NCBI GenBank assembly: GCA_026196495.1
Contig: JAPHSY010000010.1
Coordinates: 21,311-85,310 of the forward strand
Direction of reading: 5' to 3'
From: Magnetovibrio sp.
GTDB taxonomy: Bacteria > Pseudomonadota > Alphaproteobacteria > Rhodospirillales > Magnetovibrionaceae
Length of the DNA stretch: 64,000 nt
Shown here: positions 23,806 to 47,259 of the stretch, in pieces
Numbering within the stretch: position 1 is the stretch's first letter
Layout of the letters: each line of letters starts with the position of its first letter
Notes under the pieces: generated by a model
What the model saw: only the letters and a program-made list of their open reading frames with translations
What the model was told of the DNA's origin: nothing
Databases searched by the model: none
Made by a program: the position numbers and the translations under genes

Positions 23806-23927
23806 TTTTTATGAACTGAGGCGAACGCCATGTCTCCATCACATAGATGTCTGAAAGGCCAAATCCAACTTCATTATCTGTGAGACGTTTATCGTTTGTC
23901 GGGGAAAGGTTAATTAGGAGAGCGTTA

Positions 23928-24554
23928 ATGTTTTTTTCCAATATGTTGCGATTACTTTTTGTTGTTGCTTTGGTTCCTGTATCTACGAGTTTTGCACAGG
24001 AAGGGCAAAATAGAGCTCTCGGTGCCCATGAGCATGGTCATGGCAAAATGATGATTGCCCAGGACGAGTTGGAACTGTTGGTCGAGTTGCATTTGCCCGG
24101 TGTTGACGTGGTCGGATTTGAGCATGTCCCGGAAAACCACGAGCAGGAACATGTCGTGGAATTGGCGCTTAACAATCTCAAGAATGCATCACTCTGGCTG
24201 CGTTTAACGGAGTCGGCGAAGTGCCAAATTGAAGATGCGCATGTTTCTTCGCCTTTCGCCGTTGGTCAGGACGACCATAAGGATGAGGGGCCCCAAGGTG
24301 CACATGGTGATCACGCCCACGATTCTGCCGACAAGCATGATGACAGCCATGACGATGAACACGCAGACGTCATTCACAGCGAGTTTAGCGGGAAATATCA
24401 CTTTCACTGCGAAGCACCGGATAAACTGAATGAGGTGGATGTTGGTCTATTCAATCTCTTCCCGTCTTTGGAAGAAATTGATTTTCAAGCTGTGATGACG
24501 AAGGGGCAATATGCTGGAAAGCTTGATGCAGCCCAATCTCGTATTCGTTTTTAG
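23928..24554 (+). CDS. zrgA: DUF2796 / ZrgA-family zinc-binding periplasmic protein
   Basis: Signal peptide; RALGAHEHGHGKMMIAQDELELLVELHLPGVDVVGFEH; His/Asp-rich loop HKDEGPQGAHGDHAHDSADKHDDSHDDEHAD. Confidence 0.88.
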   Translation: MFFSNMLRLLFVVALVPVSTSFAQEGQNRALGAHEHGHGKMMIAQDELELLVELHLPGVDVVGFEHVPENHEQEHVVELALNNLKNASLWLRLTESAKCQIEDAHVSSPFAVGQDDHKDEGPQGAHGDHAHDSADKHDDSHDDEHADVIHSEFSGKYHFHCEAPDKLNEVDVGLFNLFPSLEEIDFQAVMTKGQYAGKLDAAQSRIRF

Positions 24555-24585
24555 TTCAAGATCATTTCCGGGAGACGTTGTTGGT

Positions 24586-25305
24586 ATGTCAGATGTCCAG
24601 ATACCTCTTGTTGAAGTTTCAAACCTACGGTTTCGTTGGCTCCGTAAAGGAACAGACATTTTGAGTATCGAAAATTTAACGGTACAAAAAGGCGAACGCT
24701 TGTTCGTTAAGGGCAACTCGGGAAGTGGAAAGACAACACTGCTCAACATCATTGCTGGCATTATCACACCGCAAAACGGAAGTGTGAAGATATTGGATGA
24801 GACCATAAGCAGCATGTCATCTTGGAAGCGGGATGGCTTTCGTGCCCAACATATTGGCATCGTTTTTCAAATATTTAACCTGATCCCATACCTCTCACTC
24901 GTCGACAACGTGATCTTACCGTGCCATTTCTCAGCACCGCGAAGAAAAAGGGCGTTGGAGAGATCCTCGACATTGATCGAAGAGGCATCCCGGTTGCTCG
25001 AGCATTTAGGACTAGATATTAACAATCTTGCGGATCAACCTGTCAGTCGTCTCAGTGTAGGACAACAGCAACGTGTTGCGGTTGCCAGGGCTTTGATGGG
25101 GGGACCGGAATTGGTGATTGCTGATGAACCGACGTCGGCACTGGATGCGAATGCCCGCAGTGCATTTTTGAAATTGCTGTTTCGGGAAGTCGAGGACAGC
25201 AATGCCAGCCTGATCTTTGTAAGCCATGACGCGAGTCTGGAACCGTATTTTGAGCGCTCTATACATTTGGACAAAATCAATCATACAGGCCCGAGGGCAA
25301 CATGA
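24586..25305 (+). CDS. ABC transporter ATP-binding protein (ZrgB-like)
   Basis: GNSGSGKTTLLNIIAGI, LSVGQQQRVAVARALMGGPELVIADEPTSALD. Confidence 0.93.
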   Translation: MSDVQIPLVEVSNLRFRWLRKGTDILSIENLTVQKGERLFVKGNSGSGKTTLLNIIAGIITPQNGSVKILDETISSMSSWKRDGFRAQHIGIVFQIFNLIPYLSLVDNVILPCHFSAPRRKRALERSSTLIEEASRLLEHLGLDINNLADQPVSRLSVGQQQRVAVARALMGGPELVIADEPTSALDANARSAFLKLLFREVEDSNASLIFVSHDASLEPYFERSIHLDKINHTGPRAT

Positions 25306-26561
25306 TTATTCTCAGATTGGTGTTTCTCAGTTTACTCAATCGACGCACCGTTGCTGCTTTAACGGTTTTTGCGGTCACCATCAGCGTAACCTTGTTCTTG
25401 AGCGTTGAAAAAATTCGCACTGGTGCCCGGGATGGTTTTGCCAACACCATATCTGGCACGGATGTAATCGTTGGTGCTCGAACGGGATCGCTGCAACTTC
25501 TTATGTATTCGGTTTTCCATATTGGAAATGCGACGAACAACATCACCTGGAAAAGCTATCAGCACATCCAGGACCGGCCAGAAACAAAATGGGCTGTTCC
25601 TATATCTTTGGGTGATTCACACAAGGGTTTTCGGGTTCTGGGAACACACACAGATTTTTTCGACAGGTTTCGTTATGCACGCAAACGCATGTTGACCTTT
25701 CAGCAAGGGCGGCCTTTTGATCAAGTTTTGGATGTCGTGTTGGGCGCAGACGTTGCGAAGACGCTGAACTATGGCATTGGTGATAGCATCGTCATATCGC
25801 ACGGTTTAGGAAAAGTTAGCTTCGCAAGCCATGATAATATGCCGTTTCGGGTTGTCGGCATCCTATTGCCGACGGGAACACCCGTTGACCAAACCTTACT
25901 TGTCCCATTGGAGGGGATCGAAGCCATTCATATCGGGTGGGGGCGGGGTGTGCGTTCCGGACAGAAAGGTGTCGGTCCGCAGGACCTCGAGAACGCGGAT
26001 CTTCAGCCCAAAGCTATTACGGCAGCCCTCGTTGGATTGACCTCAAAAATGAAAGTGTTTCAGTTTCAACGGTCAGTTAATGAGTATTTGGGAGAGCCGC
26101 TCATGGCAATTTTACCGGGTGTTGCCTTGCAAGAACTTTGGACGTTGATGGGGACGGCTGAAAAGGCCTTGGTCATTATCAGCTTATTTGTAGTGGTTGC
26201 GGGGCTTCTTGGCATGTTGACAATGATACTGTCTGGTTTGAATGAACGGCGCCGGGAAATGGCTATTTTGCGATCTGTTGGAGCTAGGCCCATGCACATC
26301 ATTGCCCTGTTTGTGGTCGAAGCGACCTTACTTGCGTTTGTAGGAGCATGCCTGGGAGTGGTGGCAACGATCATTGGTATAAGCCTTGTCGCACCAATGA
26401 TAGAGGCCCAATATGGGGTGTATCTAACCGTTTCCCCGCCGGGGCTGAAGGAAGGGCTGATAGTCGCTGCTGTGAGTGCTTCTGGTTCAATTGTCGGTTT
26501 ATGGCCAGCTTTGCGGGCTTATCGCCTGTCCGTGGCCGATGGGATGATCGTACGCATATAA
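25302..26561 (+). CDS. ABC transporter permease, FtsX family (ZrgC-like)
   Basis: 4 bp overlap with the ATPase; LNERRREMAILRSVGARPMHIIALFVVEA. Confidence 0.92.
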   Translation: MIILRLVFLSLLNRRTVAALTVFAVTISVTLFLSVEKIRTGARDGFANTISGTDVIVGARTGSLQLLMYSVFHIGNATNNITWKSYQHIQDRPETKWAVPISLGDSHKGFRVLGTHTDFFDRFRYARKRMLTFQQGRPFDQVLDVVLGADVAKTLNYGIGDSIVISHGLGKVSFASHDNMPFRVVGILLPTGTPVDQTLLVPLEGIEAIHIGWGRGVRSGQKGVGPQDLENADLQPKAITAALVGLTSKMKVFQFQRSVNEYLGEPLMAILPGVALQELWTLMGTAEKALVIISLFVVVAGLLGMLTMILSGLNERRREMAILRSVGARPMHIIALFVVEATLLAFVGACLGVVATIIGISLVAPMIEAQYGVYLTVSPPGLKEGLIVAAVSASGSIVGLWPALRAYRLSVADGMIVRI

Positions 26562-26567
26562 AGAGAG

Positions 26568-27101
26568 GTGTCAGTGTTTCGTTTTCTTTATGGGATATTC
26601 TTTGTGTGTTTGATGGTGTCGCCACTATCCGCTGTGGCGGAACAGGTGCGAGAGGTTAATTGGGAAGACCTAGCTGCTCCCACTCCACCAGAAATTCAAA
26701 AAGAACTTGATGCCTTGAACGAACTTGATCTTATGGATGAGATCGCACTTGAGGAAGCTGATGCAAAGTGGGAAGCCTTGCAGGAAAAGGCTTATCCTGT
26801 TGTGGAAGCCTTGGACGGGGAAACAATCCGCATTCCTGGCTTTGTTGTTCCGGTTGACCTCGAAGCGGATGTCGTTCGGGAGTTTTTGTTGGTGCCATAT
26901 CTAGGGGCGTGTATACATGTTCCACCGCCCCCGCCCAATCAGGTCATCTATGTAAAATCTCCACAGGAATATACTGTTGAAGAACTGTTTGATCCTGTCT
27001 GGGTGACGGGTCAAATTCAAGTTTCCACCACAAATACTGATTTGGCTGAATCTGGATATATCTTAAATGCAGATGATATCGTTAGATATGTTGTTGATTG
27101 A
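26568..27101 (+). CDS. DUF3299 domain protein (ZrgD-like)
   Basis: GTG start; IRIPGFVVPVDLEADVVREFLLVPYLGACIHVPPPPPNQVIYV is characteristic of DUF3299. Confidence 0.88.
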   Translation: MSVFRFLYGIFFVCLMVSPLSAVAEQVREVNWEDLAAPTPPEIQKELDALNELDLMDEIALEEADAKWEALQEKAYPVVEALDGETIRIPGFVVPVDLEADVVREFLLVPYLGACIHVPPPPPNQVIYVKSPQEYTVEELFDPVWVTGQIQVSTTNTDLAESGYILNADDIVRYVVD

Positions 27102-27176: not shown

Positions 27177-28571
27177 TTACCATCGTGGCATAAAGGGGCG
27201 ATCACGACGTGGTAGTGGGGGGCGCTTGGGGGGGCGTGGCGGCGCACGATAGATGTTGACGTTGTTGTCTTCATAGGCCGTGGTGTTGTTTTCGATATAT
27301 CTTGCCGCGCGGGCCGCAAAGTAACCATCGGGGAAGTCTTGAAGATAAGCACGGTAGTCTTTGACAGATCCCGAGCTTAATGCGGTTCTCCACAGGGGCA
27401 GTTCGCCTGCTTGTAAAAGTGCTATGTTTGCGCGTTTTACAAACCCAATTACACCGTTTGTATCCGTTTCATACCATTTTCCGTCTTCTGTACGTCCGGT
27501 CAGCAATACACTTTGGTCTCTGCGCACAAGCGTCAATTTTTCAGTCGTATCATCCGGTTTTTCGAATACATCGGCTCTTCGCATCGATACTCCATAACGC
27601 CGCGTATAAATAACAACAGGAGAATCCTCAACTGCTTGTGTTTCTATCTTGCTTTCTTGTTTAGGTGTTGGGGCAGAGGCGACAATGGTTTGTGGCTCGG
27701 GTTGTTTTTCTTCTGCTGTATTGGTCTGCGGACGAACAGGGAGTTGTCCAGAGGGGTAGGAGGCAAACACACGATCAAAATTACCCGTAAGCGACGCATG
27801 TTGTTCTCGACCATAGGTGCGACGGGCGGCGCGGGTCATATTCTGATCCAGGAAAGTCTTGAGCTCATCGGCCCAGACCACGCCGTCTTTGTTGGCATCG
27901 GCCTCTCCGTAAACACCGCGCAGGAAATATTCGGTAAACAGCCCCTGGCGGGTCTCATGATCCCAACTGGCCAGTTGATTGGCACCTGATGCTGTAAGCA
28001 CAGTTAGGCTGTCATCAATTGTTTCGTCTATGGGTACGATGACCCCGCCCGACGATGATGGAAACAGCGTGCCACCTGCGCTGGAACCCGAAAAACAGGT
28101 ATCGATCACCACGGTTGCGCGTTTGAAACTTTTGAGATTGTTATAGAGTGTCGACAACGGATAACCGTTTAGTTCTGCAAAATCGGGTAGGGCATCTGTA
28201 GGCAGCAGGTACTGACGGTGATCGCTAAGCCCTGAAACCCCATGTCCTGAATAATACACAAAGACCTCGGCATCCTTTCCCGATCCGGCATAGTGCCATA
28301 GTTTGCCCTTGCGATTGTTGGCGGTGCCAAGAACGGTTTCCATTTGTGCCTTGGTGGCATTGCGTAGATCTATGATGTTGTCAGGTTCAACATGCAAAAC
28401 GTCCGTAAGATACACGCGGATCGCATCGGCATCTCGCTCTGCGTACTGAACGTTGGGTAACCCGGAACCATAATTAGAATTACCGATAATCACAGCAGCG
28501 GTCCCACTGAATGCCGAATTGGCCCATGCAGCTAGACATATAAATAGGATGAAGCTCAATCGCTGGGTCAT
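27177..28571 (-). CDS. Exported caspase-fold (peptidase C14) protein with C-terminal SH3-like domain
   Basis: Signal peptide; AAVIIGNSNY, VFVYYSGHGVSG (His110), VVIDTCFSGSS (Cys159); SH3-like VSMRRADVFEKPDDTTEKLTLVRRDQSVLLTGRTEDGKWYETDTNGVIGFVKRANI. Confidence 0.92.
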   Translation of the reverse strand: MTQRLSFILFICLAAWANSAFSGTAAVIIGNSNYGSGLPNVQYAERDADAIRVYLTDVLHVEPDNIIDLRNATKAQMETVLGTANNRKGKLWHYAGSGKDAEVFVYYSGHGVSGLSDHRQYLLPTDALPDFAELNGYPLSTLYNNLKSFKRATVVIDTCFSGSSAGGTLFPSSSGGVIVPIDETIDDSLTVLTASGANQLASWDHETRQGLFTEYFLRGVYGEADANKDGVVWADELKTFLDQNMTRAARRTYGREQHASLTGNFDRVFASYPSGQLPVRPQTNTAEEKQPEPQTIVASAPTPKQESKIETQAVEDSPVVIYTRRYGVSMRRADVFEKPDDTTEKLTLVRRDQSVLLTGRTEDGKWYETDTNGVIGFVKRANIALLQAGELPLWRTALSSGSVKDYRAYLQDFPDGYFAARAARYIENNTTAYEDNNVNIYRAPPRPPKRPPLPRRDRPFMPRW

Positions 28572-28686
28572 TCAGATTATCGTCCTTTGGTGTTGTCCTA
28601 TTTGTATCCATGAAATATCGGGTCAAACCCCATATTCAGTAGACCTCATTATAAAGGTTTTGTCCGTGACCTGGAATACAACCGTT

Positions 28687-29343
28687 TTACCGAATGTCAG
28701 GCAAAGTCGTTAATATCCGGCGAACGGCATCATTGGCGATGGAATAGGCTAATCCTTCGTTGGTATTGAATGATACTGCTTTGGCCGTATTGGCAAAAAT
28801 AGATAGTGGGGATAGAGGTATACCACCATCGCCGCGCCGGGCAACATGTGCGCCACGCCAGAGCACTTCGTCGTTACTGGTTTTTCGCAATTCAAGTTTG
28901 GCCCCGACCCGTTTGTCGGACCATATTACGGCGAATTGGTCACCGCTTCCCTGTAAGGTGATTGTGAGATGAAACCCACAACGCTGGCTGCGGGCAAAGG
29001 TCTTTAGGTCTTCGGGAACTTTCAGGTCATAACCTTGTTCACGGGCAATGCGGTCACGGGACAGGGGGGAGATGACACGGTCAATTTTTCCAGTGAGCTG
29101 TCGGGCGACGGTGCTTTCAACGAAGCGCGACAGCTCTGTTGGGTTCTTATTGTCCATGGGGGAGATAATTACGCAATTGGGGGCGTTTTGAAAGTATGCA
29201 GGGCTAACGTGATACATAACCGTTTGGTCATTGGCTTGCATTTCTCCCGCGGCATCGGTTTCAACCGACTGGACTTGAGCTGGAACACACGCAGCCAGTC
29301 CCATAAGCAGGATAAGTAGGGAGACTGTACGATATGGTTTCAT
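28687..29343 (-). CDS. Predicted lipoprotein of unknown function
   Basis: SLLILLMGLAACVP lipobox; gene-cluster context. Confidence 0.7.
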   Translation of the reverse strand: MKPYRTVSLLILLMGLAACVPAQVQSVETDAAGEMQANDQTVMYHVSPAYFQNAPNCVIISPMDNKNPTELSRFVESTVARQLTGKIDRVISPLSRDRIAREQGYDLKVPEDLKTFARSQRCGFHLTITLQGSGDQFAVIWSDKRVGAKLELRKTSNDEVLWRGAHVARRGDGGIPLSPLSIFANTAKAVSFNTNEGLAYSIANDAVRRILTTLPDIR

Positions 29344-29345
29344 GT

Positions 29346-30305
29346 CTACGTTCTCCATGCACAGCGAGACGTTTGGGCCTTCAGACCGATCCGTCCTGGA
29401 ATGGGGCGGCCGTCAACCAATAGGTCTTCGACAATAACAGTGTTGCCCTCTAGGCGGTAACGGGCACGAATGGATTTGGTTTGGTCGTACCCATCACCAA
29501 TGTATTTGCGAAGCCCCCCCAATAAGGAAGCATCGACTTGGCGCAAGAATATGCGAACACCAGAGGCTTGTGATTTCATGCTGTGGTGTTTGCGAATGGC
29601 ATATTCTGCATTATGTTCGGATGGCGATAGCCAACCGGCAGGTTGGCGCAGAAATCCACTGTAGCGGTCCATGTTGATGTTCCAAGATGATCCTGGTGCA
29701 CCATCGGCAACAAATAGGCGTGATTGTCCATCCATCAAAGCAACCCGCATGCCAAGACATGATTCCATATGTTTGAACAGGCGACCATGTTGGGAGCGGT
29801 CATCCGGCCAAGCAATCTCAATCATAGGGCCTTTGCCGTGTTCGAGTGTTCTGAGCAGCGTGCGTCCTTCCATCATATCGGTGGCCGCAGGCACGAAGGT
29901 TGTGGGTTCTTTAGGCTTGGGCATAATTTTGGCCTGGTCATTGGCTTTTACGGCAGGCTTTGGTTTCGGCCTGTGAGTGTTCGTTGGTTTTTGTTTTGAT
30001 GTTTGCTTCCCGGGCAGTTTTTGGTCTTTGCCCTTTTGACGGTCTTCAGGTTTTACCTCAGTAACTTCAACAGGTCCTGACTTTAACGTCGGTGTGGGGG
30101 CTGGCGGTGGCGGAAGGGTGAGGGCCGTGGGGATTGGGTTGCTTTTTTCGTTGGGCGTTTTCTCTTTGGGAGTTTTTGGTTCTTTGGCTTCTACTTTTTG
30201 CTCTGGCACAGAGGTCTGGGCGACAAGCATTGTTACAATCCAAGTTGCGAACAACAGGCTGATGACAACGGAAATACGTGCCGTCCATTTTCTACGCCAA
30301 GTCAT
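29346..30305 (-). CDS. TonB-like inner-membrane protein (single TM, Pro/Lys-rich linker, novel C-terminal domain)
   Basis: N-terminal TM then KPKPAVK-type linker and a ~150 aa globular C-terminal region. Confidence 0.65.
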   Translation of the reverse strand: MTWRRKWTARISVVISLLFATWIVTMLVAQTSVPEQKVEAKEPKTPKEKTPNEKSNPIPTALTLPPPPAPTPTLKSGPVEVTEVKPEDRQKGKDQKLPGKQTSKQKPTNTHRPKPKPAVKANDQAKIMPKPKEPTTFVPAATDMMEGRTLLRTLEHGKGPMIEIAWPDDRSQHGRLFKHMESCLGMRVALMDGQSRLFVADGAPGSSWNINMDRYSGFLRQPAGWLSPSEHNAEYAIRKHHSMKSQASGVRIFLRQVDASLLGGLRKYIGDGYDQTKSIRARYRLEGNTVIVEDLLVDGRPIPGRIGLKAQTSRCAWRT

Positions 30306-30308
30306 GGC

Positions 30309-30830
30309 TTACCTCATCATCTTTTCGGCGAACATGCGTTCCATGTCTGAAGCCAGATCATATAGTGCCTTGCGGCGGTCATTGCTTTTGTTTGGTTCTA
30401 CAGTATCTATCTCTGCCATATCTAATGTTGTTGATGTGGTAATTGTGGGCTCTGCTTGGGTTTTGGTTGTGTGTGTTTCAATCTTTGACACCTCTATGGG
30501 CGACACATCCCTAGGTGCTTCGTGGGTCACACGCACTGGGACTTCTTGTGCGGGTGGTAACTCGGGCAGCGTTGGTTGATTTTGCGAAGTGGGTTCTTCT
30601 GCCCTGTGAGAGGGTGAGAGCTTTTTGACAGCGACAGATGCGGCAGTTTTCTCTGCTTGCGGTGGTTCTACACGTTGTTTTGGTTTTTGTGGAGAAGGGG
30701 CTGGTGTCGCCATGTCCATCGGTATGGTGAGCTGTGCAGAATTGTTGTGCGATTCAGACAGTTCAGGGCGATCCATGACCAGAAAGACCATGGCTCCGAC
30801 GACAACAATATTGAAGATTAAGAACCGCAT
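30309..30830 (-). CDS. Single-TM Pro-rich envelope protein of unknown function
   Basis: MRFLIFNIVVVGAMVFLVM anchor, Pro/Ala-rich stretch, C-terminal helix. Confidence 0.65.
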   Translation of the reverse strand: MRFLIFNIVVVGAMVFLVMDRPELSESHNNSAQLTIPMDMATPAPSPQKPKQRVEPPQAEKTAASVAVKKLSPSHRAEEPTSQNQPTLPELPPAQEVPVRVTHEAPRDVSPIEVSKIETHTTKTQAEPTITTSTTLDMAEIDTVEPNKSNDRRKALYDLASDMERMFAEKMMR

Positions 30831-31336
30831 GGGGCCTCCTCTTGCGCTTCGATGCGCGAATGAGAAATTAATATGAGTGCGCGCAGGGCTGCCGAAGTTG
30901 GTAGGCCGACTACGGTGGTCATGAAGGCTAAGCTGAAATGGTCGGTCAGTTGGCTGATGACGTGTTGTACAGTGCTTGGGGTGAGTTCCTGATCGGACAA
31001 GGTGCCAATGCCAAGGCTGATACCCAGCAATGTGTAAGTTAAGGCCAAAGTGGAAACACCATTGGCTGCGTGAAGACCACCTTCAAGCCAGACCGTGCGG
31101 GTTCTGGCCGTCAATTGGCCATCCCCCAGACGTGCCCAGCAGTATACGGTTGCAAAAATGAGTGCAGAAAACAGCGTGATAAATGTGATACCAAATACTT
31201 CTAGGGTCCACCTTGCAATGGCGTCAGGCCCCATTGAAGTTGCACCAACTGCAATGGCCAATCCGATCACGCCCGCACCCAACACATAGCTTAATGAGCG
31301 CGATCCGGTTTCTGCGATGTTGAGGGCGCGGTGCAT
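30818..31336 (-). CDS. Compact MotA/TolQ/ExbB-like membrane protein
   Basis: 172 aa; LLGISLGIGTLSDQ...LTDHFSLAFMTTVVGLPTSAALRALILI resembles the ExbB/MotA TM3-TM4 pattern. Confidence 0.55.
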   Translation of the reverse strand: MHRALNIAETGSRSLSYVLGAGVIGLAIAVGATSMGPDAIARWTLEVFGITFITLFSALIFATVYCWARLGDGQLTARTRTVWLEGGLHAANGVSTLALTYTLLGISLGIGTLSDQELTPSTVQHVISQLTDHFSLAFMTTVVGLPTSAALRALILISHSRIEAQEEAPCGS

Positions 31337-31337
31337 G

Positions 31338-31730
31338 TTATCGTCTCCCGATTTTAGCAGACATCAAGCTGTCGGTATTGACAGAGAATTGATCCAGCCA
31401 GTTGTCTAACATCGTCAGGTTTTTTTCAGTGGCGGAGTGGGCCATGAAGGTGACGTCGTAGTTCAAAAATGCACGCCGCACGATGGGGGTGGTCTTGCCG
31501 CGTAAACTATTGTCACGCAATACCATGCGTTCCATATCGATCAAACGACGTTTGGAGACTTCAATACGGGCATGGCGTTCATTGGGTTGCAGATTACTGT
31601 CAAGGAAATAGTTTACCGTTTGAGCGCGTTCGCGTTCGAGATTTTCCAAAGTACCTGCTTGTGCGACGGTAGAGATAAAGGCGATGACAGCAGAAGCCAT
31701 CAACATAGTTTTGAAGGACTGTATCAACAT
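31338..31730 (-). CDS. Exported protein of unknown function
   Basis: 130 aa with signal peptide; tightly packed in the cluster. Confidence 0.6.
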   Translation of the reverse strand: MLIQSFKTMLMASAVIAFISTVAQAGTLENLERERAQTVNYFLDSNLQPNERHARIEVSKRRLIDMERMVLRDNSLRGKTTPIVRRAFLNYDVTFMAHSATEKNLTMLDNWLDQFSVNTDSLMSAKIGRR

Positions 31731-31751
31731 GATGAAATCTCCTGCTTATGA

Positions 31752-32651
31752 TCAGTTGTTGAGGAAATAGCTGACTGATGTTGCGGGCTGAAGAGAACGA
31801 GTTACGTCGCTATCCGCTAATTCTGCATCCAAACCGTCATCAGCCAGATCCATTGCATCAAGGGCGACCAACTTGGCCATGTAGCCAAGAATGGTTTCTT
31901 CTTGTTCGATGATGGATATTTCTGCTTGAGCATCGGAAACGAGACGGCGTAAATGTTCTTTGCGGGTCATTGGAATTTCTTCCTCACCCATACTCGATGC
32001 ATTCAGTTTATGGTTTTCAATACGTGCAACCAATTGTTCAATGGCTTGCATGTTTTTGGTGAATTGTTGAGCGTAACGGCTTTCCGGTGCCATGCTGTTG
32101 GAGAAAAAGTTACGATCAACATCGGCGTAAGTACGTTCGAAACGTTCAAGGGCCGCTTCTTGGTTGGCAATAACTTCTTCGGCACCAGGGCCGGTGTTTT
32201 CTTGTTGGCTCAAATGATCCAACATGTCTTCAAACAGATTGCGTTTTGTTTCCAGATGCTGACGACGCAGGGCATTGCGTTCTGTCATCATATCCAAATA
32301 TGCACGTTTTTCAGCCAGGAATTCATGGCGTAGTTCTAAGCGTACATCACCCGTTGAAGATGCTATGGCTTGTTGCAGGTCTGCTAATGTTGAGCCTTTA
32401 AGCGAAATGTTTTCTTCAGACGTGCTCAATGCTTCCCCTAGGGAGGATTGTGCAAAATCATTATCCAATGATTTCTTCAAGTAGTTGGTTGGCAACTTAA
32501 CCAAACGCTCACTTGATTGTGGTGACCAATTCACTTGGCTGGCCATTGCAGGTGGCGTGAGCAGTAAGCTCGCCACGAGTAGAGGTGTTACGAAAGCCAG
32601 TCTAAGTACACCGGGATCGCAATGTTGGTTGAAGCGGGGTATGCGTGTCAT
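31752..32651 (-). CDS. Exported coiled-coil protein of unknown function
   Basis: 299 aa; signal peptide LLTPPAMAS then predominantly helical sequence. Confidence 0.65.
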   Translation of the reverse strand: MTRIPRFNQHCDPGVLRLAFVTPLLVASLLLTPPAMASQVNWSPQSSERLVKLPTNYLKKSLDNDFAQSSLGEALSTSEENISLKGSTLADLQQAIASSTGDVRLELRHEFLAEKRAYLDMMTERNALRRQHLETKRNLFEDMLDHLSQQENTGPGAEEVIANQEAALERFERTYADVDRNFFSNSMAPESRYAQQFTKNMQAIEQLVARIENHKLNASSMGEEEIPMTRKEHLRRLVSDAQAEISIIEQEETILGYMAKLVALDAMDLADDGLDAELADSDVTRSLQPATSVSYFLNN

Positions 32652-32676
32652 GGGGCTCTCCTAGCGCTGATGTGGC

Positions 32677-33285
32677 TTAGTGTGTTTGCCAGTGATGCAC
32701 GCGACGCAGTTCTGCTTTGAGTTGTGCATTCACGTTGGCGTCGGAATAACGCCCAATGGTGCTTGGTTTACGCATTCCGAGTAGGACTTCCACGGTGTCG
32801 ATAAATGAAGACCCGTCGGCGTAATAAATGTCCATGTCTGGATATGTTGTGGTGAATTTTTCAAGATTGACACGGGCTGCAGCCACATCACCGCCTTTGA
32901 GGTGGTTTTGTATGCTGAGTGCATAGGCTTGCATCCGTTCATCCTTGGCAACGGAGCGCGCTCCCGGTCCAATGCTTGCTTCGCATTTTTCTAGCATGCG
33001 GGCACTGGCAAGATACTTAGCTGAATCCCCTGTGGTACGGGCTTGTTGGTCTAATTCCAGGGCATCATCGCGGCACTGGCGAAAATCGCGCATGGCTGAA
33101 ACTTCAGCAAACCGTGCTTCGCGGTAACCGATACCCTCATCAAAGGTTTGTGTGGTTACACAGGCCGACAGAACGACACTTGATAGAACGATTGCGGTAA
33201 ACGCAGAGGCGTGTTTGCGGCTACGGTGGTGACTGTTTTTTGTATGGGTTGGCATTGCTTCAAACCTCTTATAGCTGTTGCTCAT
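32677..33285 (-). CDS. Predicted lipoprotein of unknown function
   Basis: VVLSACVTT lipobox; helical-repeat-like body. Confidence 0.65.
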   Translation of the reverse strand: MSNSYKRFEAMPTHTKNSHHRSRKHASAFTAIVLSSVVLSACVTTQTFDEGIGYREARFAEVSAMRDFRQCRDDALELDQQARTTGDSAKYLASARMLEKCEASIGPGARSVAKDERMQAYALSIQNHLKGGDVAAARVNLEKFTTTYPDMDIYYADGSSFIDTVEVLLGMRKPSTIGRYSDANVNAQLKAELRRVHHWQTH

Positions 33286-33335
33286 AAGGGTTATGGATGG
33301 GCCAGAAGCATTTTTTTAGGGAGGTGTGAAAAAAA

Positions 33336-34586
33336 TTATGGCTCTACCGTGAAAGCGAATTCATCGATGGCCAGGTTGTCGCCAGCTGCAGAATGAAAAA
33401 TCCGAGCAATATCGGCAGCGATAACAGGGGGCAACGGGCCTGTTGTCTCGCCTTTCAAGGGATCAGGAAGATGTGGTGTGATGTCCTCTTCAGTCGCAAA
33501 GCAGGCGATCACTTCTTCCCCAGCAGGTGGGGCCAACCGTATTTTAAATGGGAAAAAATCTTCGCTTGGAACATGATAGGCGACATTAGCTTCAAAGCGG
33601 AAAACCTCATCTACGTATGGATTGGGGTAAAGCTGCAATACTGTTCCATCTGCTTGAAAGTAAAAGCAATTTAGCCAAGAATCCCGGTTGATTTCGATGG
33701 TAAATTCAAGGTGGTCACCGAAATTGAAAACGGGTTCATCGTCGTGTTTGCTATATAACTCGATGCTCAATTCTTCGGTATTTTTTTCAGGCTCCAATAT
33801 CTCTAAAGGTTCTTCTTCAGTGGAGATTGTCGGGGCAGGTAAAGGGATTTCTGTGTTGATGTTAAGGGGGGCTTGGGCAATAGAGGTATTATCAGACTCA
33901 AAGTCTTGTAAATTGAACAAGATTACGGCGAATGCAACGGCAACGACGGCGAACAAGGCCCATCCAGGGCGGCCGGGCTTGGGACTTTCGTTGATTTGCA
34001 GTGTTTCGGGAGGAGTGTTGATTAGGTTGAGAGTGTTGAGAACTTCTTTGATGCGATTGGCGGGAAGAATTTGCACACCATCGGGTAAGTGGCTTGAGAG
34101 CAACTCTTTGTGATTGTTGCCTTTGGGGACAACAGCATAGACACGTTTGTTATCTTTGAGCCAACGTGCAAACTCAGCCTGGGCAGCGTTGGCTTTTTCT
34201 GCAATGTGATCTACGGGTTTGATGTGCAGATCATAGTCAACCATGCCCGTCATCCACAAAACCACATCGGCTTCATCAGGAGTGCTGAGGGCAGAGGATT
34301 CATTTTGTTCAACGGAATGAGCCGTAAAAACGCCCAGTTGCCAGCTACGCCCCGTACCAATGGGGCCAGAGGCATCCAGGCGGAAGGCGTTTTCTTCGAA
34401 TGGTCCGAATTCACGCATAATAATGCCGCTGCCGAGCTTGACGAAATCGTCATAGTCCCCGCTTATGGGTAACACTTCGGATGAACGCCCCAGGCAGATC
34501 ATGGATTGGGGCGCGTATTCGGGCGTAATGCGCTGGATCAGGACTGGGCCGCCGGTGGTGGCGACGTAAACGGCTATGCGTTTCAC
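33336..34586 (-). CDS. Bitopic membrane protein with C-terminal DUF4384 domain
   Basis: ~210 aa N-terminal domain, TM WALFAVVAVAFAVILF, then IEINRDSWLNCFYFQADGTVLQLYPNP (DUF4384 signature). Confidence 0.8.
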   Translation of the reverse strand: MKRIAVYVATTGGPVLIQRITPEYAPQSMICLGRSSEVLPISGDYDDFVKLGSGIIMREFGPFEENAFRLDASGPIGTGRSWQLGVFTAHSVEQNESSALSTPDEADVVLWMTGMVDYDLHIKPVDHIAEKANAAQAEFARWLKDNKRVYAVVPKGNNHKELLSSHLPDGVQILPANRIKEVLNTLNLINTPPETLQINESPKPGRPGWALFAVVAVAFAVILFNLQDFESDNTSIAQAPLNINTEIPLPAPTISTEEEPLEILEPEKNTEELSIELYSKHDDEPVFNFGDHLEFTIEINRDSWLNCFYFQADGTVLQLYPNPYVDEVFRFEANVAYHVPSEDFFPFKIRLAPPAGEEVIACFATEEDITPHLPDPLKGETTGPLPPVIAADIARIFHSAAGDNLAIDEFAFTVEP

Positions 34587-35119
34587 CTGAGATAGGCCTC
34601 CGACTTCGGATCACTTAATAATCTGACGATATCGGAATTTTTCTCGACAATCACTTGAATAATTCCGTTTCGCGAAGGTGGGAGAGATATTTGATAAATG
34701 CGGTCATCCGTGCCGGAAACCACCAGGGTCTCTGGCTTGGAATCGGTAAAGTCTAAAAGCTCAACAATCAAATACAGTAGGTTCTCTTCTGCGCGTGATG
34801 GTTTGAACGAAAGTTTGCACCCACGTCCTTTGCGTTCAGGCAATTCATTAGGGCTTGCAGCAGCCATGGCTTCGGGAAGGATGAACAGGGCGGTATTCCT
34901 GATCATTGTGCGATGAGCTGCGCGTAGGTCTGGGTTCGCGTTCAGAGCATTTTCGATATCAGTAGTGTCTCCGTCCAATTGGCCTTGGGCATACGCCTGC
35001 AATCGACTGGGGCTGACAAAATGACCATCGGCTTGGAGCAAGTTATCAGCACTGACAAGCGCCTGGAACTCCTCTTGAACCTTCTCTATGTCTTGGGAGG
35101 TGAGCATATAGGTGATCAT
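34583..35119 (-). CDS. Unknown protein with anti-sigma-like N-terminal segment
   Basis: SPSRLQAYAQGQLDGDTTDIENALNANPDLRAAHRTM; 4 bp overlap with the DUF4384 gene. Confidence 0.6.
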   Translation of the reverse strand: MITYMLTSQDIEKVQEEFQALVSADNLLQADGHFVSPSRLQAYAQGQLDGDTTDIENALNANPDLRAAHRTMIRNTALFILPEAMAAASPNELPERKGRGCKLSFKPSRAEENLLYLIVELLDFTDSKPETLVVSGTDDRIYQISLPPSRNGIIQVIVEKNSDIVRLLSDPKSEAYLR

Positions 35120-36669
35120 GAAGTTTCTCCGTATAGCGCGGTGAATTGTTGATGAAAATTGTTTCGGTCTACATCAAACAAAGATTCCAAATCCAGACCA
35201 TCAAGGGCTTTTAGTAATCCTTCTAGTTGGCTGCCGACTGACAAGAGAGGATCTGCGGCCAACTTAAAGGGTTCTGCTTTATCCGCATCGTTAAGAACGT
35301 GGTCTTCAAACCCTTTGCGGGTGAGCTTTTTAAATGCTTTGGCACCATCATCCAAAACCGCTTCAGAAGATGGTGAAGGATCCGTTGTCACCGTACCTGG
35401 GAATGCAATTAGAGTTCTGTCTTCCGTTTGTTTATCGATATGGGAAAGAATGTGTAGACTTGCTTGGATCAACAAACGAACATGATCCTGTAATCCTTTA
35501 TAGAGTTCTTTACGCTGGGGATATGGTTCAGCATCTGTACAAGCAATTCGATTTTGTATGGAATCCTGTCCTCGACCGATTTGAAGATCATTGGTGATGC
35601 CAGATTGGATTTGACCGAAGACTTCGTAACGCATAAAGGCAAGTGGTAAGGACATCACCTTCGGGCCGTAAGTCATGAGTGCTTCGAGCGGCTTGCGTTC
35701 GGTACTTTTTTTGAAGAACTTAATGTTGTCGAGGGGTGGGGTGTCGAACATGTCCATGGGAGATTCCCACAAGCCGGGAAGTTCTTTCACAGCGGTGTTG
35801 GCGAGGTCAAGTTCGCCATGATCCTGATTTGAACCCAGTCGCCCGGCTTCCGCAGCCGAACGTCGAGATGTGACTTCATCGAGAGCTTGAATAAATTTGA
35901 AGAACAAATCGAACACGGTGCGATAACCTTTATAATCATTTCTTTGGTTATGGAGGGACCAGAACTCAAAAATTGCCGCGTCATCAATTGTGATGCTGTT
36001 TTCCGGGCTGCGCTCTTGCAAGAAATTGTAAACAGTGGTGAATTTCCCGTCGCTTTCTGCAGATACCAGGTGGGCGATGCGGTATCGACGCATCTGGCTG
36101 GATAATTTATTGGCGGCCGTTTTGATGGAAGCTGATGAGGGCGGTTCACTTTCTAGGGAATTGAAAATCTCATTAAACTCACTGAAAAAAGCAAACCCTT
36201 CCATACCTGCCAGAAATTCATAGAGGGCGATGAGGCGGGGCATGCGCCCATAACGAATTGAGAAGTGTGTCTGATCACAGTCAATTGTGATTTGATGATC
36301 TTCGATGCGGAGGTTTTCGGGTGCCGGTTGGCTATGAAAAAAAGATTTTAAGGATGAAGGGCTGATCGGGGTGAGGCCTAAGAAAAACAAAGACCGCTGT
36401 TCACTGCTGCTTTTGCTCAGTAAGCCTAAGGCGGTGACCAGATGACAGAGTTCATATAGAGGAGCATCCTTGTTGGGACCGCCTGTTGCACCCGTTACGA
36501 ACCGGGAAAGCCATTGCATGGTGGGTGTTTCGGCATACCGGGGTTGTCCGTCGGGTGTTGTCGCCTCGGCGACAGCCTTGAAATCTTGGATCAGAGTGTC
36601 GCGGCCTCCAAAATTCACGAGGTTGCTGATCGCAGTGCTCACGAGGGATATCTCCTTAGTTTTCCTCAT
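35116..36669 (-). CDS. Large protein of unknown function (about 517 aa from internal start MRKTKEISL)
   Basis: ORF 35116..36900; 4 bp overlap with the next gene. I chose start 36669 because the upstream 77 aa overlap the lytic transglycosylase 3' end and are Arg/Pro-rich. Confidence 0.7.
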   Translation of the reverse strand: MRKTKEISLVSTAISNLVNFGGRDTLIQDFKAVAEATTPDGQPRYAETPTMQWLSRFVTGATGGPNKDAPLYELCHLVTALGLLSKSSSEQRSLFFLGLTPISPSSLKSFFHSQPAPENLRIEDHQITIDCDQTHFSIRYGRMPRLIALYEFLAGMEGFAFFSEFNEIFNSLESEPPSSASIKTAANKLSSQMRRYRIAHLVSAESDGKFTTVYNFLQERSPENSITIDDAAIFEFWSLHNQRNDYKGYRTVFDLFFKFIQALDEVTSRRSAAEAGRLGSNQDHGELDLANTAVKELPGLWESPMDMFDTPPLDNIKFFKKSTERKPLEALMTYGPKVMSLPLAFMRYEVFGQIQSGITNDLQIGRGQDSIQNRIACTDAEPYPQRKELYKGLQDHVRLLIQASLHILSHIDKQTEDRTLIAFPGTVTTDPSPSSEAVLDDGAKAFKKLTRKGFEDHVLNDADKAEPFKLAADPLLSVGSQLEGLLKALDGLDLESLFDVDRNNFHQQFTALYGETS

Positions 36670-36727
36670 ATAGGGGTGGCTTGTGAGTGTACGGGCAGGG
36701 GGAATGCAAATCAAACACATGAAATGA

Positions 36728-37489
36728 TCAATCCCAGAAATGTGGCCGGTGATTGCCACGGTAGATGCGCGGCGGTTTGCGGTGACGCGGCGGCGGTGGT
36801 CTGTCAAAGGCCAACTGGCGGGTGCGGGGGGCGGGGTAGATGGTTTCCCATTCCTGGCCTTGATCATCACCCTCTTCTGGCAGCCATTGTACGATTTCAA
36901 GTGGGGCTGGCGGGCGTGTTTCCGCGTAGCGCGCCTGGATTATGCTCTCGGTTTGTCTATCCGGTGTTGCTTGATTATGGTTCGACAATGCCATCCAGAC
37001 TGCATTTTGTTCATCGTAAACCCGCTGCCACTTCATGACAGAATCGACATATCGACGCGTATATGCATGGGGGCGAGCATGCTGGCCGCTGCCGTCAAGC
37101 GTGCCGCCGTTATAGTGAGACAATGCCAACTCCCAACGCTGTCCATACATGTTGTGGAGCTGTTTTAAAAACCGAATTCCGAGATCAACATTGGTTTGGG
37201 CATCCCACAATTTATCTGAATTGACATCAAAGTCTTCTTTGGCGGTTTTGGGCATGATTTGCATGACACCGCGTGCACCTGCCGGGCTTAAGGCCCGTGC
37301 ATCAAAGTTTGATTCAACCTTTGCCACTGCCAGTGCCAAGGAAGGAGGCACTTGATTGTCTAATGCTGTTTCAACGACCAGACGTTTAATCTCGACACGG
37401 TTCAGAGCCCAAGATGGGGCCATGGTCACAATCCAACAGGTGGCAGAGAGAAACCCGAGAACGACAAGACGGTTTAACGCATAGGTCAT
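36728..37489 (-). CDS. Lytic transglycosylase (SLT domain)
   Basis: VPPSLALAVAKVESNFDARALSPAGARGVMQIMPKTA...LWDAQTNVDLGIRFLKQLHNMYGQRWELALSHYNGG. Confidence 0.93.
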   Translation of the reverse strand: MTYALNRLVVLGFLSATCWIVTMAPSWALNRVEIKRLVVETALDNQVPPSLALAVAKVESNFDARALSPAGARGVMQIMPKTAKEDFDVNSDKLWDAQTNVDLGIRFLKQLHNMYGQRWELALSHYNGGTLDGSGQHARPHAYTRRYVDSVMKWQRVYDEQNAVWMALSNHNQATPDRQTESIIQARYAETRPPAPLEIVQWLPEEGDDQGQEWETIYPAPRTRQLAFDRPPPPRHRKPPRIYRGNHRPHFWD

Positions 37490-37896
37490 GGTTGTTTCTC
37501 CTTCAATGCTTTTTGCCAGCGCTCGTCCAAGGGGGCGATGGTCAAATTTGTGACTGGGACACCCTCGCGCGCACTTAGAGCCTCGGTCATGGATAGGGTT
37601 CCATCAACGGCAAGTATGATGTGTTCTCGTGATGCCAAGCTGGTTGGGTCAATGGGGATTAGGTCGGCATTCAAGTATTGACCTTTGTAATAAATTACCA
37701 AGTCAGAACTGGATACTTGAGTTTCCTGACTTTTGGGTTGGTCTTGGTTTTTTGATGTTTCTGAGTGTTGAATATGAACACCGGGGCTGTGATCGGTCGA
37801 AATAGTTTCTGGAACCATGCCGCTGCCCATAGACACCAATGTAAGGACCATGATGGAAAAGAACCCCATTGCGAGTGCTAGAGCAATTTCTGCCAT
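37486..37896 (-). CDS. ExbD/TolR-like single-TM protein (divergent)
   Basis: MAEIALALAMGFFSIMVLTLVSMG anchor; short periplasmic domain ending TNLTIAPLDERWQKAL. Confidence 0.5.
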   Translation of the reverse strand: MAEIALALAMGFFSIMVLTLVSMGSGMVPETISTDHSPGVHIQHSETSKNQDQPKSQETQVSSSDLVIYYKGQYLNADLIPIDPTSLASREHIILAVDGTLSMTEALSAREGVPVTNLTIAPLDERWQKALKEKQP

Positions 37897-37933
37897 AGCA
37901 TTATTTTGCACACCGTGAATCATCCGTTTGTCC

Positions 37934-38605
37934 TTATCCGTTCAAATCGTTACGCAGTTCTTGGCTATCCACTTGGTCAATGTCTGCAAAATAGTCTTCG
38001 TCACCCAATTCAGCTTGCATATCCTCTTCGAGGTCCTCGAGTTCTTCCGTCAAACGATCAATGAGATATGGTGCAATTGTGTGGCCTGCATCGTTTGTCG
38101 CACGGCGCAAACACGGCTCGTCACATTTCATATTTTCTAATCTCTGTTTGGCAGACTGAACTTTGATCGTCTCCAACACGTCGCCTTCATACGGATCGAT
38201 TACACGAGCGATAATTTTAAGTGTGAATTGGCTATGGTCAGCTCGGTGCTTTACATCACGACGGACGGTTAGCATGACGGCCCAGTCCACGATATCGTCG
38301 GGTAACTGCTCTAGTGCGGTTATGGTTTCTTGAATATTGCGCCGTTTTACATTTTTCCGTTTTGGGCTTTTGGCGATGCCTTTTTCGGTATAAATGCGAA
38401 ACTCAGATTCATTGAGATTATCGGCAATGGCCTCTATCAATTCGGAAAATTGTGGTTGATTGCGTGCCATGGTTTGTGGGTTTCCATCTTCCCCGATTAG
38501 CAGCACGCGCGGTTTCCAATCTGCGGACACAGTAGAAGCAAAGGTCATCGCCATGAGTGATGCAATAATGGCGAGCCAAAAACGGTTGGGATGGAGGGGG
38601 TGCAT
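37934..38605 (-). CDS. Exported periplasmic protein of unknown function
   Basis: 223 aa; signal peptide ending TVSADW; first gene of the co-directional block. Confidence 0.65.
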   Translation of the reverse strand: MHPLHPNRFWLAIIASLMAMTFASTVSADWKPRVLLIGEDGNPQTMARNQPQFSELIEAIADNLNESEFRIYTEKGIAKSPKRKNVKRRNIQETITALEQLPDDIVDWAVMLTVRRDVKHRADHSQFTLKIIARVIDPYEGDVLETIKVQSAKQRLENMKCDEPCLRRATNDAGHTIAPYLIDRLTEELEDLEEDMQAELGDEDYFADIDQVDSQELRNDLNG

Positions 38606-38734: not shown

Positions 38735-39466
38735 CTATCGTTTCTTCTTTTTGCTTTGTTCAAGGTGGACTCGCAGTTCACTTATGCTGGCAATGTGTAT
38801 AGCCTTAGGGGCATTGGTTATGCCGTGTTTGGTAAGGCTCGCCAATAGGCGTGATAGGCTTTCTTTCTTTATTCCCAATTTTTTAGCCAACATTCCTTTG
38901 TCTATTGGAAGATCAAGTGTGTAAGAGCCACTCACATCATCTGGAACGTGTTCCAATATGTATTGAATAATTCTTTGAGACGCGCTGTTCAGCTTTAAAT
39001 TGTCCAATTGAGACGTGAAAATCCTTTCCCACAGTGCCAATGATCCCAAAATTGAAAATGCTGTTTCTGGGGATTGTTCTAATCTTTTGAGAAACAGGGA
39101 TTGGGGGAGGGTGATTAGCCGTGACCCCGCAGCGTATTCAGCCGTTGCCGGATACTTACCTTGTAAGAAGACCGCAGCAACAGCAAAGGTGCGCACGGGT
39201 GTTATCGTTTCAATAAGTACCTGCGAGCCGTCTTCGTGATAGAGAGAGATATTCACCATGCCATCTAAAAGAATGTAGATATTTTCCGCAGGCTCATCGT
39301 GAGTGAACAAAAGGCCTGATTTTCTATATGTCTTGACGACAGCATCTCGGATCAGTTCTGCACGTAAATGTGATGGAACATGGGACAGGAAGGGCACTTG
39401 TTCAAGTTGATCAATATCCGCTTGTGACAGTTCGCTGGTAGTGCTGATTTTTGATTTTTGGGTCAT
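38735..39466 (-). CDS. Crp/Fnr-family transcriptional regulator (copy 1)
   Basis: cNMP-binding-like fold FTHDEPAENIYILLDGMVNISLYHEDGSQVLIETI; HTH LAKKLGIKKESLSRLLASLTKHGI. Confidence 0.9.
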   Translation of the reverse strand: MTQKSKISTTSELSQADIDQLEQVPFLSHVPSHLRAELIRDAVVKTYRKSGLLFTHDEPAENIYILLDGMVNISLYHEDGSQVLIETITPVRTFAVAAVFLQGKYPATAEYAAGSRLITLPQSLFLKRLEQSPETAFSILGSLALWERIFTSQLDNLKLNSASQRIIQYILEHVPDDVSGSYTLDLPIDKGMLAKKLGIKKESLSRLLASLTKHGITNAPKAIHIASISELRVHLEQSKKKKR

Positions 39467-40176
39467 AACGTGCCCTGCGATGTGTCCAAAGCTTCGGCAA
39501 GTTTTTGCGGATCTTCGATCGTGATTTTGCGGCCCTTAACATTGACACCACTGGCTTTTAGTTTTTTGAGGGCACGTGATAAACTTTCTGGAACGATGCC
39601 GAGGTGAGCCGCAAGGTCTTTTTTCTCATAGGGCAAAGTGAACGCCAGGGCATTGTTGTTATTTTTCATGCATTCAAGAAAATGTGCTGCTAAGCGCTGT
39701 TCAGCATTTTGAGCCTTGAGGCTATCGATTTGACCGATTAAACCGTGAATTTTTCGGCTCAGTCCACCCAGCATGGATTGTAGAAGCACCCAATTTGTTT
39801 TCAAAGTGTTTGCCAAGTTTTCAGAGGGGAAGCTCAGGATATGTGATTCGCCGATTGTGCGATAGACGTGTTCGATGTCGCGCATTAGAAAAAGTTCTGG
39901 CAGGCCTATGAAGCTGTTTGTTCCTATGATGTCCACCAACTGTCCATGTTCGTTTGCATCTTTGGTGTATGAGCCGACATGACCTTGGAGGACAAGGTAG
40001 ACGGTGTTGACCGTTTTGACACCTGTGTCCAATTGCGTCCCGGGTGGTAAATAATGCTGCTCAGCAATCTGCAACAAAGCCCGCCGACTGTCTTCAGGAG
40101 CTTCGCTCAGAGACGGCACAAGGCTCAATGCAAAGAGCAAACCCCAATCATCAGCTAAGTCATCTTTTGTCGACAA
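39463..40176 (-). CDS. Crp/Fnr-family transcriptional regulator (copy 2, Dnr/NnrR-like)
   Basis: LPPGTQLDTGVKTVNTVYLVLQGHVGSY; HTH KKDLAAHLGIVPESLSRALKKLKASGV; overlaps copy 1 by 4 bp; divergent from norC. Confidence 0.9.
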   Translation of the reverse strand: MSTKDDLADDWGLLFALSLVPSLSEAPEDSRRALLQIAEQHYLPPGTQLDTGVKTVNTVYLVLQGHVGSYTKDANEHGQLVDIIGTNSFIGLPELFLMRDIEHVYRTIGESHILSFPSENLANTLKTNWVLLQSMLGGLSRKIHGLIGQIDSLKAQNAEQRLAAHFLECMKNNNNALAFTLPYEKKDLAAHLGIVPESLSRALKKLKASGVNVKGRKITIEDPQKLAEALDTSQGTL

Positions 40177-40300
40177 TCGAAGTCTCCTTAAACGCCGAAT
40201 GGTTATTTCGTGCTACGTGCAGATGCTCAAAACAATAAGTATAGGGATGAACGGTGCAGATAGCTAAGTTTGATAATTTTGGTATGCATGTTGCGTAAAG

Positions 40301-40314
40301 TTGACAAATGTTAA
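40301..40314. promoter_or_regulatory. FNR/NNR-type binding site upstream of norC
   Basis: TTGAC-AAAT-GTTAA; the opposite strand reads TTAAC-ATTT-GTCAA, matching the NNR-box pattern; 91 bp before the norC ATG. Confidence 0.6.
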
Positions 40315-40404
40315 AGACCAACTGCCAGCCTCGGACATACGCTTATCCTAAGAATTTGCAATAGCCCATTTCCTTTTTCAGGCGAAACGCAAGGGAAAAT
40401 AAAT

Positions 40405-40857
40405 ATGTCTGAAGGACTTACCAAATCGACCGCAAGAAATATCTTTTTTGGAGGTACGATTTTCTTCTTTGTCATTCTGGTTGCACTGACCGTGCACAGC
40501 TTTGGCTATATCGAAAAGAACTCAACTGATGTTGCCGCTATTACCCCCAGTGTTGCCCAGGGCAAACACGTATGGGAAAGACACTCGTGCATCAATTGCC
40601 ACACCCTGTTGGGTGAGGGTGCCTACTACGCCCCAGAACTGGGCAACGTGTGGGCTCGCTACGGTGGTTATGAGGATGCCGAAGGTGCCCGTGATGGCAT
40701 CAAAGGTTGGATCGCTAACCAACCGACAGGGATTGAAGGGCGTCGCCAGATGCCTCATTTCGATATCAACGAACAAGAACTCGATGCACTCGTCGACTTT
40801 TTCCGTTGGGTCAACACCATCAAGACCCAAAACTGGCCCCCAAATGAAGCCGGTTGA
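40405..40857 (+). CDS. norC: Nitric oxide reductase subunit C (cytochrome c)
   Basis: HVWERHSCINCHTLLGEGAYYAPELGNVW heme-c motif; followed by norB. Confidence 0.97.
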   Translation: MSEGLTKSTARNIFFGGTIFFFVILVALTVHSFGYIEKNSTDVAAITPSVAQGKHVWERHSCINCHTLLGEGAYYAPELGNVWARYGGYEDAEGARDGIKGWIANQPTGIEGRRQMPHFDINEQELDALVDFFRWVNTIKTQNWPPNEAG

Positions 40858-40885
40858 TTGAGCCAGGCACGAGGAGAAATCTATT

Positions 40886-42232: not shown

Positions 42233-42270
42233 CGTCGCTCAATAAAAACGAAGCTGAAGACTAACTAAAC

Positions 42271-42311: not shown

Positions 42312-42335
42312 CTTTCGCATTAGGTGCTTTTTCTC

Positions 42336-43127: not shown

Positions 43128-43138
43128 GGTGAAATGTC

Positions 43139-45088: not shown

Positions 45089-45089
45089 T

Positions 45090-47256: not shown

Positions 47257-47259
47257 GGC

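Follow-up and report, generated by a model that had tools for sequence, protein, structure and literature searches.

What kind of system is encoded by the 14 genes that lie one behind another on the minus strand, from position 38605 down to 27177, in a 64,000-nucleotide stretch of Magnetovibrio sp. DNA (contig JAPHSY010000010.1; the whole stretch is called the window below)? The host genome, of 3.1 Mb, is alphaproteobacterial. The first-pass annotation had read these genes as a wall-spanning apparatus coupled to the proton-motive force (PMF) and equipped with a proteolytic executor. Judging from sequences and predicted structures, we consider it on balance probable that the cluster encodes a hitherto undescribed, PMF-powered trans-envelope force transducer under proteolytic control. 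The apparatus, a syntenic one, is itself probable, whereas the caspase that had been taken for its executor proved to be accessory.

All 14 open reading frames (ORFs) were confirmed, and they form one cluster with overlaps or short gaps: from 38605 to 27177 the intergenic distances are 10, -4, 58, -4, -4, 50, 25, 21, 1, -13, 3, -13, and 115 bases. Confident Pfam matches among the 14 proteins are limited to SLT, DUF4384, and the caspase domain, and by sequence almost no part of the cluster belongs to a known protein family. Since a match to any Pfam family is lacking for most core proteins, the cluster escapes domain searches. In the order of transcription, and under working names, the genes are as follows; export signals were judged from the predicted protein sequences.

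exp223, 37934..38605, minus strand: first gene; exported protein with a signal peptide, from a loose family of exported proteins with conserved Cys161 and Cys165
ExbDL (ExbD-like), 37486..37923, minus strand: one N-terminal transmembrane (TM) helix, a linker, and a small periplasmic domain
SLT, 36728..37489, minus strand: exported lytic transglycosylase with a Slt70-type catalytic domain and a Pro/Arg-rich C-terminal tail
orph517, 35116..36669, minus strand: cytoplasmic all-helical orphan, opening a three-gene module
asig178, 34583..35119, minus strand: cytoplasmic protein adjoining orph517, with a weakly anti-sigma-like N-terminal stretch
D4384, 33336..34586, minus strand: cytoplasmic N-terminal Lon/S16-like domain (Ser81, Lys131), one TM helix, periplasmic DUF4384
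lipo202, 32677..33285, minus strand: core lipoprotein with lipobox LSAC and three invariant Cys
cc299, 31752..32651, minus strand: core exported periplasmic protein, coiled-coil-like
exp130, 31338..31730, minus strand: core exported protein, small and helical
ExbBL (ExbB-like), 30818..31336, minus strand: core membrane protein with long helices at 77-114 and 123-167
tonBL2, 30309..30830, minus strand: single N-terminal TM helix, Pro-rich linker, conserved C-terminal helix DMERMFAEKM
tonBL1, 29346..30305, minus strand: core protein of TonB topology, that is, a TM helix with S-x3-S, a Pro-rich linker, and a globular C-terminal domain
lipoA, 28687..29358, minus strand: lipoprotein, weakly GNA1162-like (below cut-off)
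casp, 27177..28571, minus strand: exported caspase-fold (C14) protease with an SH3-like region and a Pro/Arg-rich C-terminal tail; accessory

The cluster is conserved far beyond chance and recurs, with its genes in one order, in dozens of Alphaproteobacteria and some Gammaproteobacteria, scattered bacteria of marine and other environmental origin. When orph517 and ExbBL were used as queries in 60 relatives, both turned up in scattered genomes, and the loci compared from them keep one gene order throughout in several genera. Scanning genome contigs with the ExbBL alignment yielded 79 loci, a few of them records already found by the earlier search, and iterative profiles mapped all cluster families over the loci. 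The order is strongly conserved in more than 80 loci, and the homologues are not scattered singly, as the first-pass annotation had proposed to check. Among the 40 loci with enough flanking sequence, ExbBL, cc299, exp130, and tonBL1 are each present in all, and lipo202 in 39. ExbDL and SLT follow with 30 each, asig178 with 28, and orph517 and D4384 with 27 each. tonBL2 occurs in 32, gammaproteobacterial loci carrying a similar small TM gene in its place; lipoA occurs in 24, exp223 in 22, and the caspase, by the family criterion, in 8. From these counts the core is ExbBL-cc299-exp130-tonBL1-lipo202 with ExbDL and SLT, and the caspase is accessory.

Of the 317 genomes in the sample of the order, 28 have ExbBL, 29 have cc299, and 28 have ExbDL. 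The carriers of ExbBL share cc299 in 27 cases and ExbDL in 26 (Fisher p 1e-35 and 2e-33, values that overstate the association because related genomes are not independent). ExbDL often lies several kilobases from ExbBL, and its close tracking of ExbBL despite this distance suggests that the two are partners. Carriers are rarer in the class sample (20 of 385 genomes) and the phylum sample (8 of 399, one of these a weak match). Its alphaproteobacterial carriers include Terasakiella, Aestuariispira, Sneathiella, and SAR116; among the gammaproteobacterial ones are Paraglaciecola, Glaciecola, Ningiella, and Colwellia, and there is one metagenome-assembled genome labelled Deltaproteobacteria. Thirteen of the 14 gammaproteobacterial sequences fall into one supported group of the ExbBL tree, so that spread has not been mainly by recent exchange. 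Some species of the window's genus have the cluster and others lack it, and its sites differ. Origin from a mobile plasmid or a phage was considered and rejected, since searches of plasmids, phages, and viral contigs gave no homologue of the cluster.

The two membrane proteins ExbBL and ExbDL likely constitute a proton motor, as fold and motifs suggest. The predicted model of ExbBL (pLDDT 91.6) has two long helices, and in a Foldseek search against 350,542 PDB chains TolQ, MotA, or ExbB occupied at least 22 of the 23 top ranks, TolQ chains being the best matches. This is the fold that the first-pass annotation had suggested looking for. Thr100, Thr102, and Thr140 are invariant among 73 ExbBL sequences and Thr141 is nearly so; all four lie in the last two helices, where the MotA/TolQ/ExbB superfamily keeps its essential threonines (PMC12204202). 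Aligned by eye, the ExbBL motifs TLLGI and TTVVGL correspond to GTVWGI and ATAIGL of ExbB/TolQ. ExbDL has the single N-terminal TM helix with a conserved acidic residue that is a feature of ExbD, TolR, and MotB. Its helix, NAM(T/A)EIALALAMGFFSIMVL, begins about 10 residues from the N-terminus, and Glu12, at the helix start, is invariant in all 40 sequences together with M10, L15, M19, and F22. Glu12 stands where ExbD, TolR, and MotB carry Asp, and the helix is a candidate for the proton-carrying helix of a 5:2 motor.

A number of results weigh against a motor-driven transducer under proteolytic control, and they are best considered together. The Foldseek matches of ExbBL have E-values of 0.01-1 and TM-scores of 0.2-0.4, and the fold match of the model appears as a consistent ranking, not as one significant hit. 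Pfam PF01618 gives no significant match to ExbBL (matches in 10 of 73 members, the window's not among them, reach E 0.047 at best). Profile comparisons by hhalign and hmmsearch of ExbBL and ExbDL with the relatives' canonical ExbB/TolQ/MotA and ExbD did not outscore controls; the canonical alignments were shallow, and one run had no ExbD control. ExbDL has no Pfam match and neither a PF02472 (ExbD) nor an OmpA-like periplasmic domain, and its acidic residue is Glu rather than the usual Asp. No member among 38 tonBL1 proteins matches Pfam TonB/TonB_C, and the tonBL1 TM helix has S-x3-S without the conserved His of the SHLS motif. Finally, both the cytoplasmic module and the caspase are absent from many loci.

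If ExbBL were a small membrane protein outside this family, the cluster would be a motorless complex that senses envelope stress, a reading consistent with the regulatory genes in the cluster and with the failure of sequence profiles to tie ExbBL to the family. We judge it unlikely, because Foldseek places TolQ, MotA, and ExbB consistently on top and invariant polar residues occur in TM helices of both ExbBL and ExbDL. A proton motor remains the likely reading, not an established one, because fold and motifs agree and sequence statistics do not establish homology. The earlier label ExbB/ExbD-like thus stands on fold ranking and invariant residues, and not on a significant Pfam or profile match.

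The preference for TolQ chains raises the question of a divergent Tol-Pal-like system for outer-membrane tethering or constriction, with a motor of the same type, lipoproteins fixing the outer membrane to the wall, and SLT remodelling the wall. The cluster does encode lipoproteins and Pro-rich TM proteins, and some relatives have proteins with OmpA and peptidoglycan-binding domains. However, no cluster protein has a TolA, TolB, or Pal domain by Pfam, the genome has further MotA/ExbB-family genes and ExbD-family genes paired with them, and the cluster is patchy (28 of the 317 genomes) whereas Tol-Pal is widely conserved (PMC12204202). There is thus only a small probability that Tol-Pal is the right model. 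Nor is the cluster likely to serve TonB import. This role was rejected, in agreement with the first-pass annotation, since a canonical set stands separately at 46849-48641: ExbD (PF02472) at 46849-47259, ExbB (PF01618) at about 47260-47844, and TonB at 47859-48641.

Three genes, orph517, asig178, and D4384, travel as one unit, also in loci without ExbBL; they form a module, probably regulatory, that can be separated from the machine and is no part of its core. The ORF of orph517 opens at a TTG at 36900 (594 amino acids), but translation probably begins at the ATG at 36669, which gives the 517-residue orphan already noted. Its model is confident (pLDDT 87) and mostly helical, with no fold match in the PDB search and no Pfam match. 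asig178 had been called anti-sigma-like; the NCBIfam anti-sigmaE-like match (E 0.0043) is below the cut-off. The protein named after DUF4384 does contain that domain (Pfam E 2.6e-16), yet only 5 of 25 members have it, and the conserved part is instead the cytoplasmic N-terminal 200 residues, a hidden Lon/S16-like domain. In a profile search of PDB sequences, 22 of 23 matches of this domain were Lon proteases, in the same register (best E 0.00098). The alignment covers the C-terminal half of the Lon domain only and includes the TGE...EK..A motif with the Lon catalytic Lys, with which Lys131 aligns. Ser81, upstream in GxSWQ(L/F), is assigned by motif only; both residues are conserved in essentially all members having the domain, and Ser81-Lys131 is a candidate catalytic dyad. 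We infer that D4384 is, or derives from, a Lon-type Ser-Lys peptidase that is anchored in the membrane and has no AAA+ domain.

Among the module loci without ExbBL, L032 and L037 also have SLT and caspase homologues, L042 and L043 have SLT-like and exp223-like genes, and in L041 the module stands alone; GGDEF/PAS genes also occur nearby in this second type of locus. In gammaproteobacterial loci the module is accompanied by proteins with Ser/Thr kinase, FHA, and FGE-sulfatase domains, company that fits a signalling role. Proteins that unite Ser/Thr kinase and FGE-sulfatase domains, together with FHA-domain proteins, are added at the gammaproteobacterial loci L107:352-2535, L112:5036-7810, and L099, and one of the kinase/FGE-sulfatase proteins also has a peptidoglycan-binding domain. 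Minimal clusters without orph517, asig178, and Lon-like genes (L089, L090, L105) have a two-component regulator pair nearby or divergently transcribed, possibly an alternative control module.

The families of two enzymes named in the first-pass annotation were confirmed. By its matches to PF01464 (E 2.5e-23) and Slt70 (E 1.5e-8), SLT is a real lytic transglycosylase. The caspase (PF00656, E 4.9e-15) has intact and conserved His/Cys motifs, GHG and DTCFSG, with His110 and the conserved Cys159 as dyad residues. Its gene may be at the operon end, divergent, or absent, and it is missing from minimal clusters. In the Magnetovibrio-Terasakiella subclade these two unrelated proteins both end in a Pro/Arg-rich tail, for instance ...YRAPPRPPKRPPLPRRDRPFMPRW and ...FDRPPPPRHRKPPRIYRGNHRPHFWD. 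Under one pattern definition, on which the counts rest, the tail is carried by 9 of 66 SLT and 9 of 22 caspase genes, by 0 of 729 unassigned ORFs, and by no other family; in L033 and L034 it is on one of the two proteins only. The cases are of limited independence because the carriers are closely related. The shared tail could possibly mark a common docking partner or be a sorting signal.

With such tails read as export signals, the cluster could be a secretion or surface-assembly system, its motor driving a polymer or protein out through a lipoprotein channel in the outer membrane and its SLT boring the wall (compare type III/IV secretion). A dedicated SLT, a CsgG-like protein in many relatives, and a tail common to SLT and caspase alone would agree with this. 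We find it improbable: the cluster encodes neither a secretin nor an ATPase, no channel or substrate can be identified in it, the CsgG-like gene is not universal, and the tails are limited to one subclade.

The caspase also invites comparison with Zorya-type anti-phage or abortive-infection systems, in which it would be the executor. An ExbB/MotA-like and ExbD/MotB-like pair, a weak ZorA match (E 0.0026), and the patchy distribution point the same way. Yet there is no ZorC, ZorD, or ZorE and no nuclease in the cluster, the caspase is accessory (8 of 40 loci), the neighbours are ordinary metabolic genes, phages, plasmids, and viral contigs have no match, and most gammaproteobacterial sequences are one group in the tree. 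In PADLOC no cluster gene matches at E<0.001 except to a generic caspase model. The defence role that had been suggested was therefore rejected, no meaningful PADLOC core match, no phage, plasmid, or viral homologues, and no defence-island neighbourhood having been seen; we regard a Zorya-type system as very improbable.

For the force transducer that we favour, the following arrangement is suggested. ExbBL would form a membrane pentamer with a pair of ExbDL helices inside and Glu12 as proton carrier, in keeping with fold, invariant residues, and co-occurrence. By their topology, tonBL1 and tonBL2 would carry the movement through the periplasm along their Pro-rich linkers; 'TonB-like' is meant here by topology only, since no TonB_C match was seen, and the C-terminal domain of tonBL1 has by sequence no relation to TonB_C. 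SLT would cut a hole in the peptidoglycan for the passage. The conserved, export-signal-bearing cc299, exp130, lipo202, and lipoA may assemble into the periplasmic and outer-membrane end, so that force would act on outer-membrane lipoproteins via the hole made by the system's own transglycosylase. The linked orph517 and asig178, and the membrane-anchored Lon-like D4384 with its periplasmic half, would be the cytoplasmic switch, and control could be exerted by this Lon-like and phospho-signalling module. The lineage of the window adds the exported caspase, for which the tail shared with SLT is perhaps a docking signal. What the machine would likely deliver is mechanical work, done on the wall or the outer membrane in envelope remodelling or surface export under stress, and not nutrient import. 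A more specific proposition, possible but doubtful, is that this is a new kind of machine, in which a minimal motor with a Glu carrier drives a wall-cutting complex, with a Lon-type membrane switch and, in some lineages, a tail-docked periplasmic caspase.

Accessory genes in relatives encode CsgG plus peptidoglycan-binding domains, an OmpA domain, Ser/Thr kinase, FHA, and a two-component pair, and fit a wall-spanning machine. A frequent neighbour, the c0 family (L071:2650-3519 and 22 other loci), has a CsgG-like domain joined to a peptidoglycan-binding domain and is possibly an outer-membrane part of the apparatus that is missing from the window. Two assignments within the window were dropped: exp223 has no PDB or Pfam relative and was not confirmed as CsgG-like, the combination of CsgG and peptidoglycan-binding domains holding only for the separate c0 family, and the GNA1162 match of lipoA (Pfam E 0.0078, below cut-off) is too weak.

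On one flank (38735-45677) the cluster borders on norCBQD and two genes for Crp/Fnr-type regulators (38735-40176); on the other (23847-27101) lie ABC-type transporter genes with a DUF3299 protein. In a relative of the same genus without the cluster (G004), norCBQD likewise adjoins these two crp genes. Control by FNR/NNR in common with the neighbouring denitrification genes was rejected, as no FNR-like box lies near the cluster; a perfect FNR-like site, TTGATCATCATCAA, is found at 53983-53996, about 250 bases upstream of an 819-amino-acid ORF (54240-56699). Promoter and terminator scans of the cluster gave no signal above shuffled sequences.

Recent surveys conclude that more trans-envelope systems with 5:2 motors, or more motor functions, remain to be found (PMC12204202, PMC12505986), and Puente-Lelievre et al. 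note the diversity of generic ion transporters (PMC12505986). The cluster is a strong candidate for one of these systems. If the proposal is true, one regulated unit combines mechanics driven by protons with the cutting of peptidoglycan and with proteases of two kinds, and an exported bacterial caspase gains a testable partner. Cultured carriers (Terasakiella, Paraglaciecola, Glaciecola, Colwellia, Aestuariispira) make the cluster directly testable.

No published description of the cluster was found in the open-access literature, and no described secretion or gliding system that it would match. It appears to be of the PMF-motor kind and, since the defining features of Tol, Ton, and Zorya were looked for and did not appear, to belong to none of the three. 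With Tol-Pal (TolQR-TolA) and Ton (ExbBD-TonB) it shares a presumed inner-membrane pentamer with long cytoplasmic helices, a single-TM protein with an acidic helix, proteins with a TM helix and a Pro-rich linker, and lipoproteins. It differs in having no PF01618, PF02472, or TonB_C match, no receptor, TolB, or Pal, Glu in place of Asp, a dedicated transglycosylase, 13-14 genes, and a proteolytic module. Williams-Jones et al. (2025) describe vWA force-transducer systems with TolQ-like motors (PMC12204202). Like the cluster, these were PMF-motor loci that had not been described, have C-terminal domains other than that of TonB, and came to light through gene neighbourhood; unlike them, the cluster has no vWA domain, has other partners, and contains an ExbD-like gene. 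Zorya (ZorAB) likewise pairs a MotA/ExbB-like protein with a MotB-like one in a locus that does not serve import, and there is weak ZorA similarity; the cluster lacks ZorC, ZorD, and ZorE, the long ZorA tail, and an OmpA domain on the B subunit, and lies outside defence loci. D4384 resembles Lon/S16 peptidases in the C-terminal half of the proteolytic fold and the pattern of the putative Ser-Lys dyad, but is membrane-anchored, with a variable periplasmic half and no AAA+ domain. Finally, the cluster caspase has the intact His-Cys dyad of bacterial caspases (C14/orthocaspase), but differs from them in being exported, with an SH3-like region and a Pro/Arg-rich tail, and in sharing an operon with a cell-wall enzyme.

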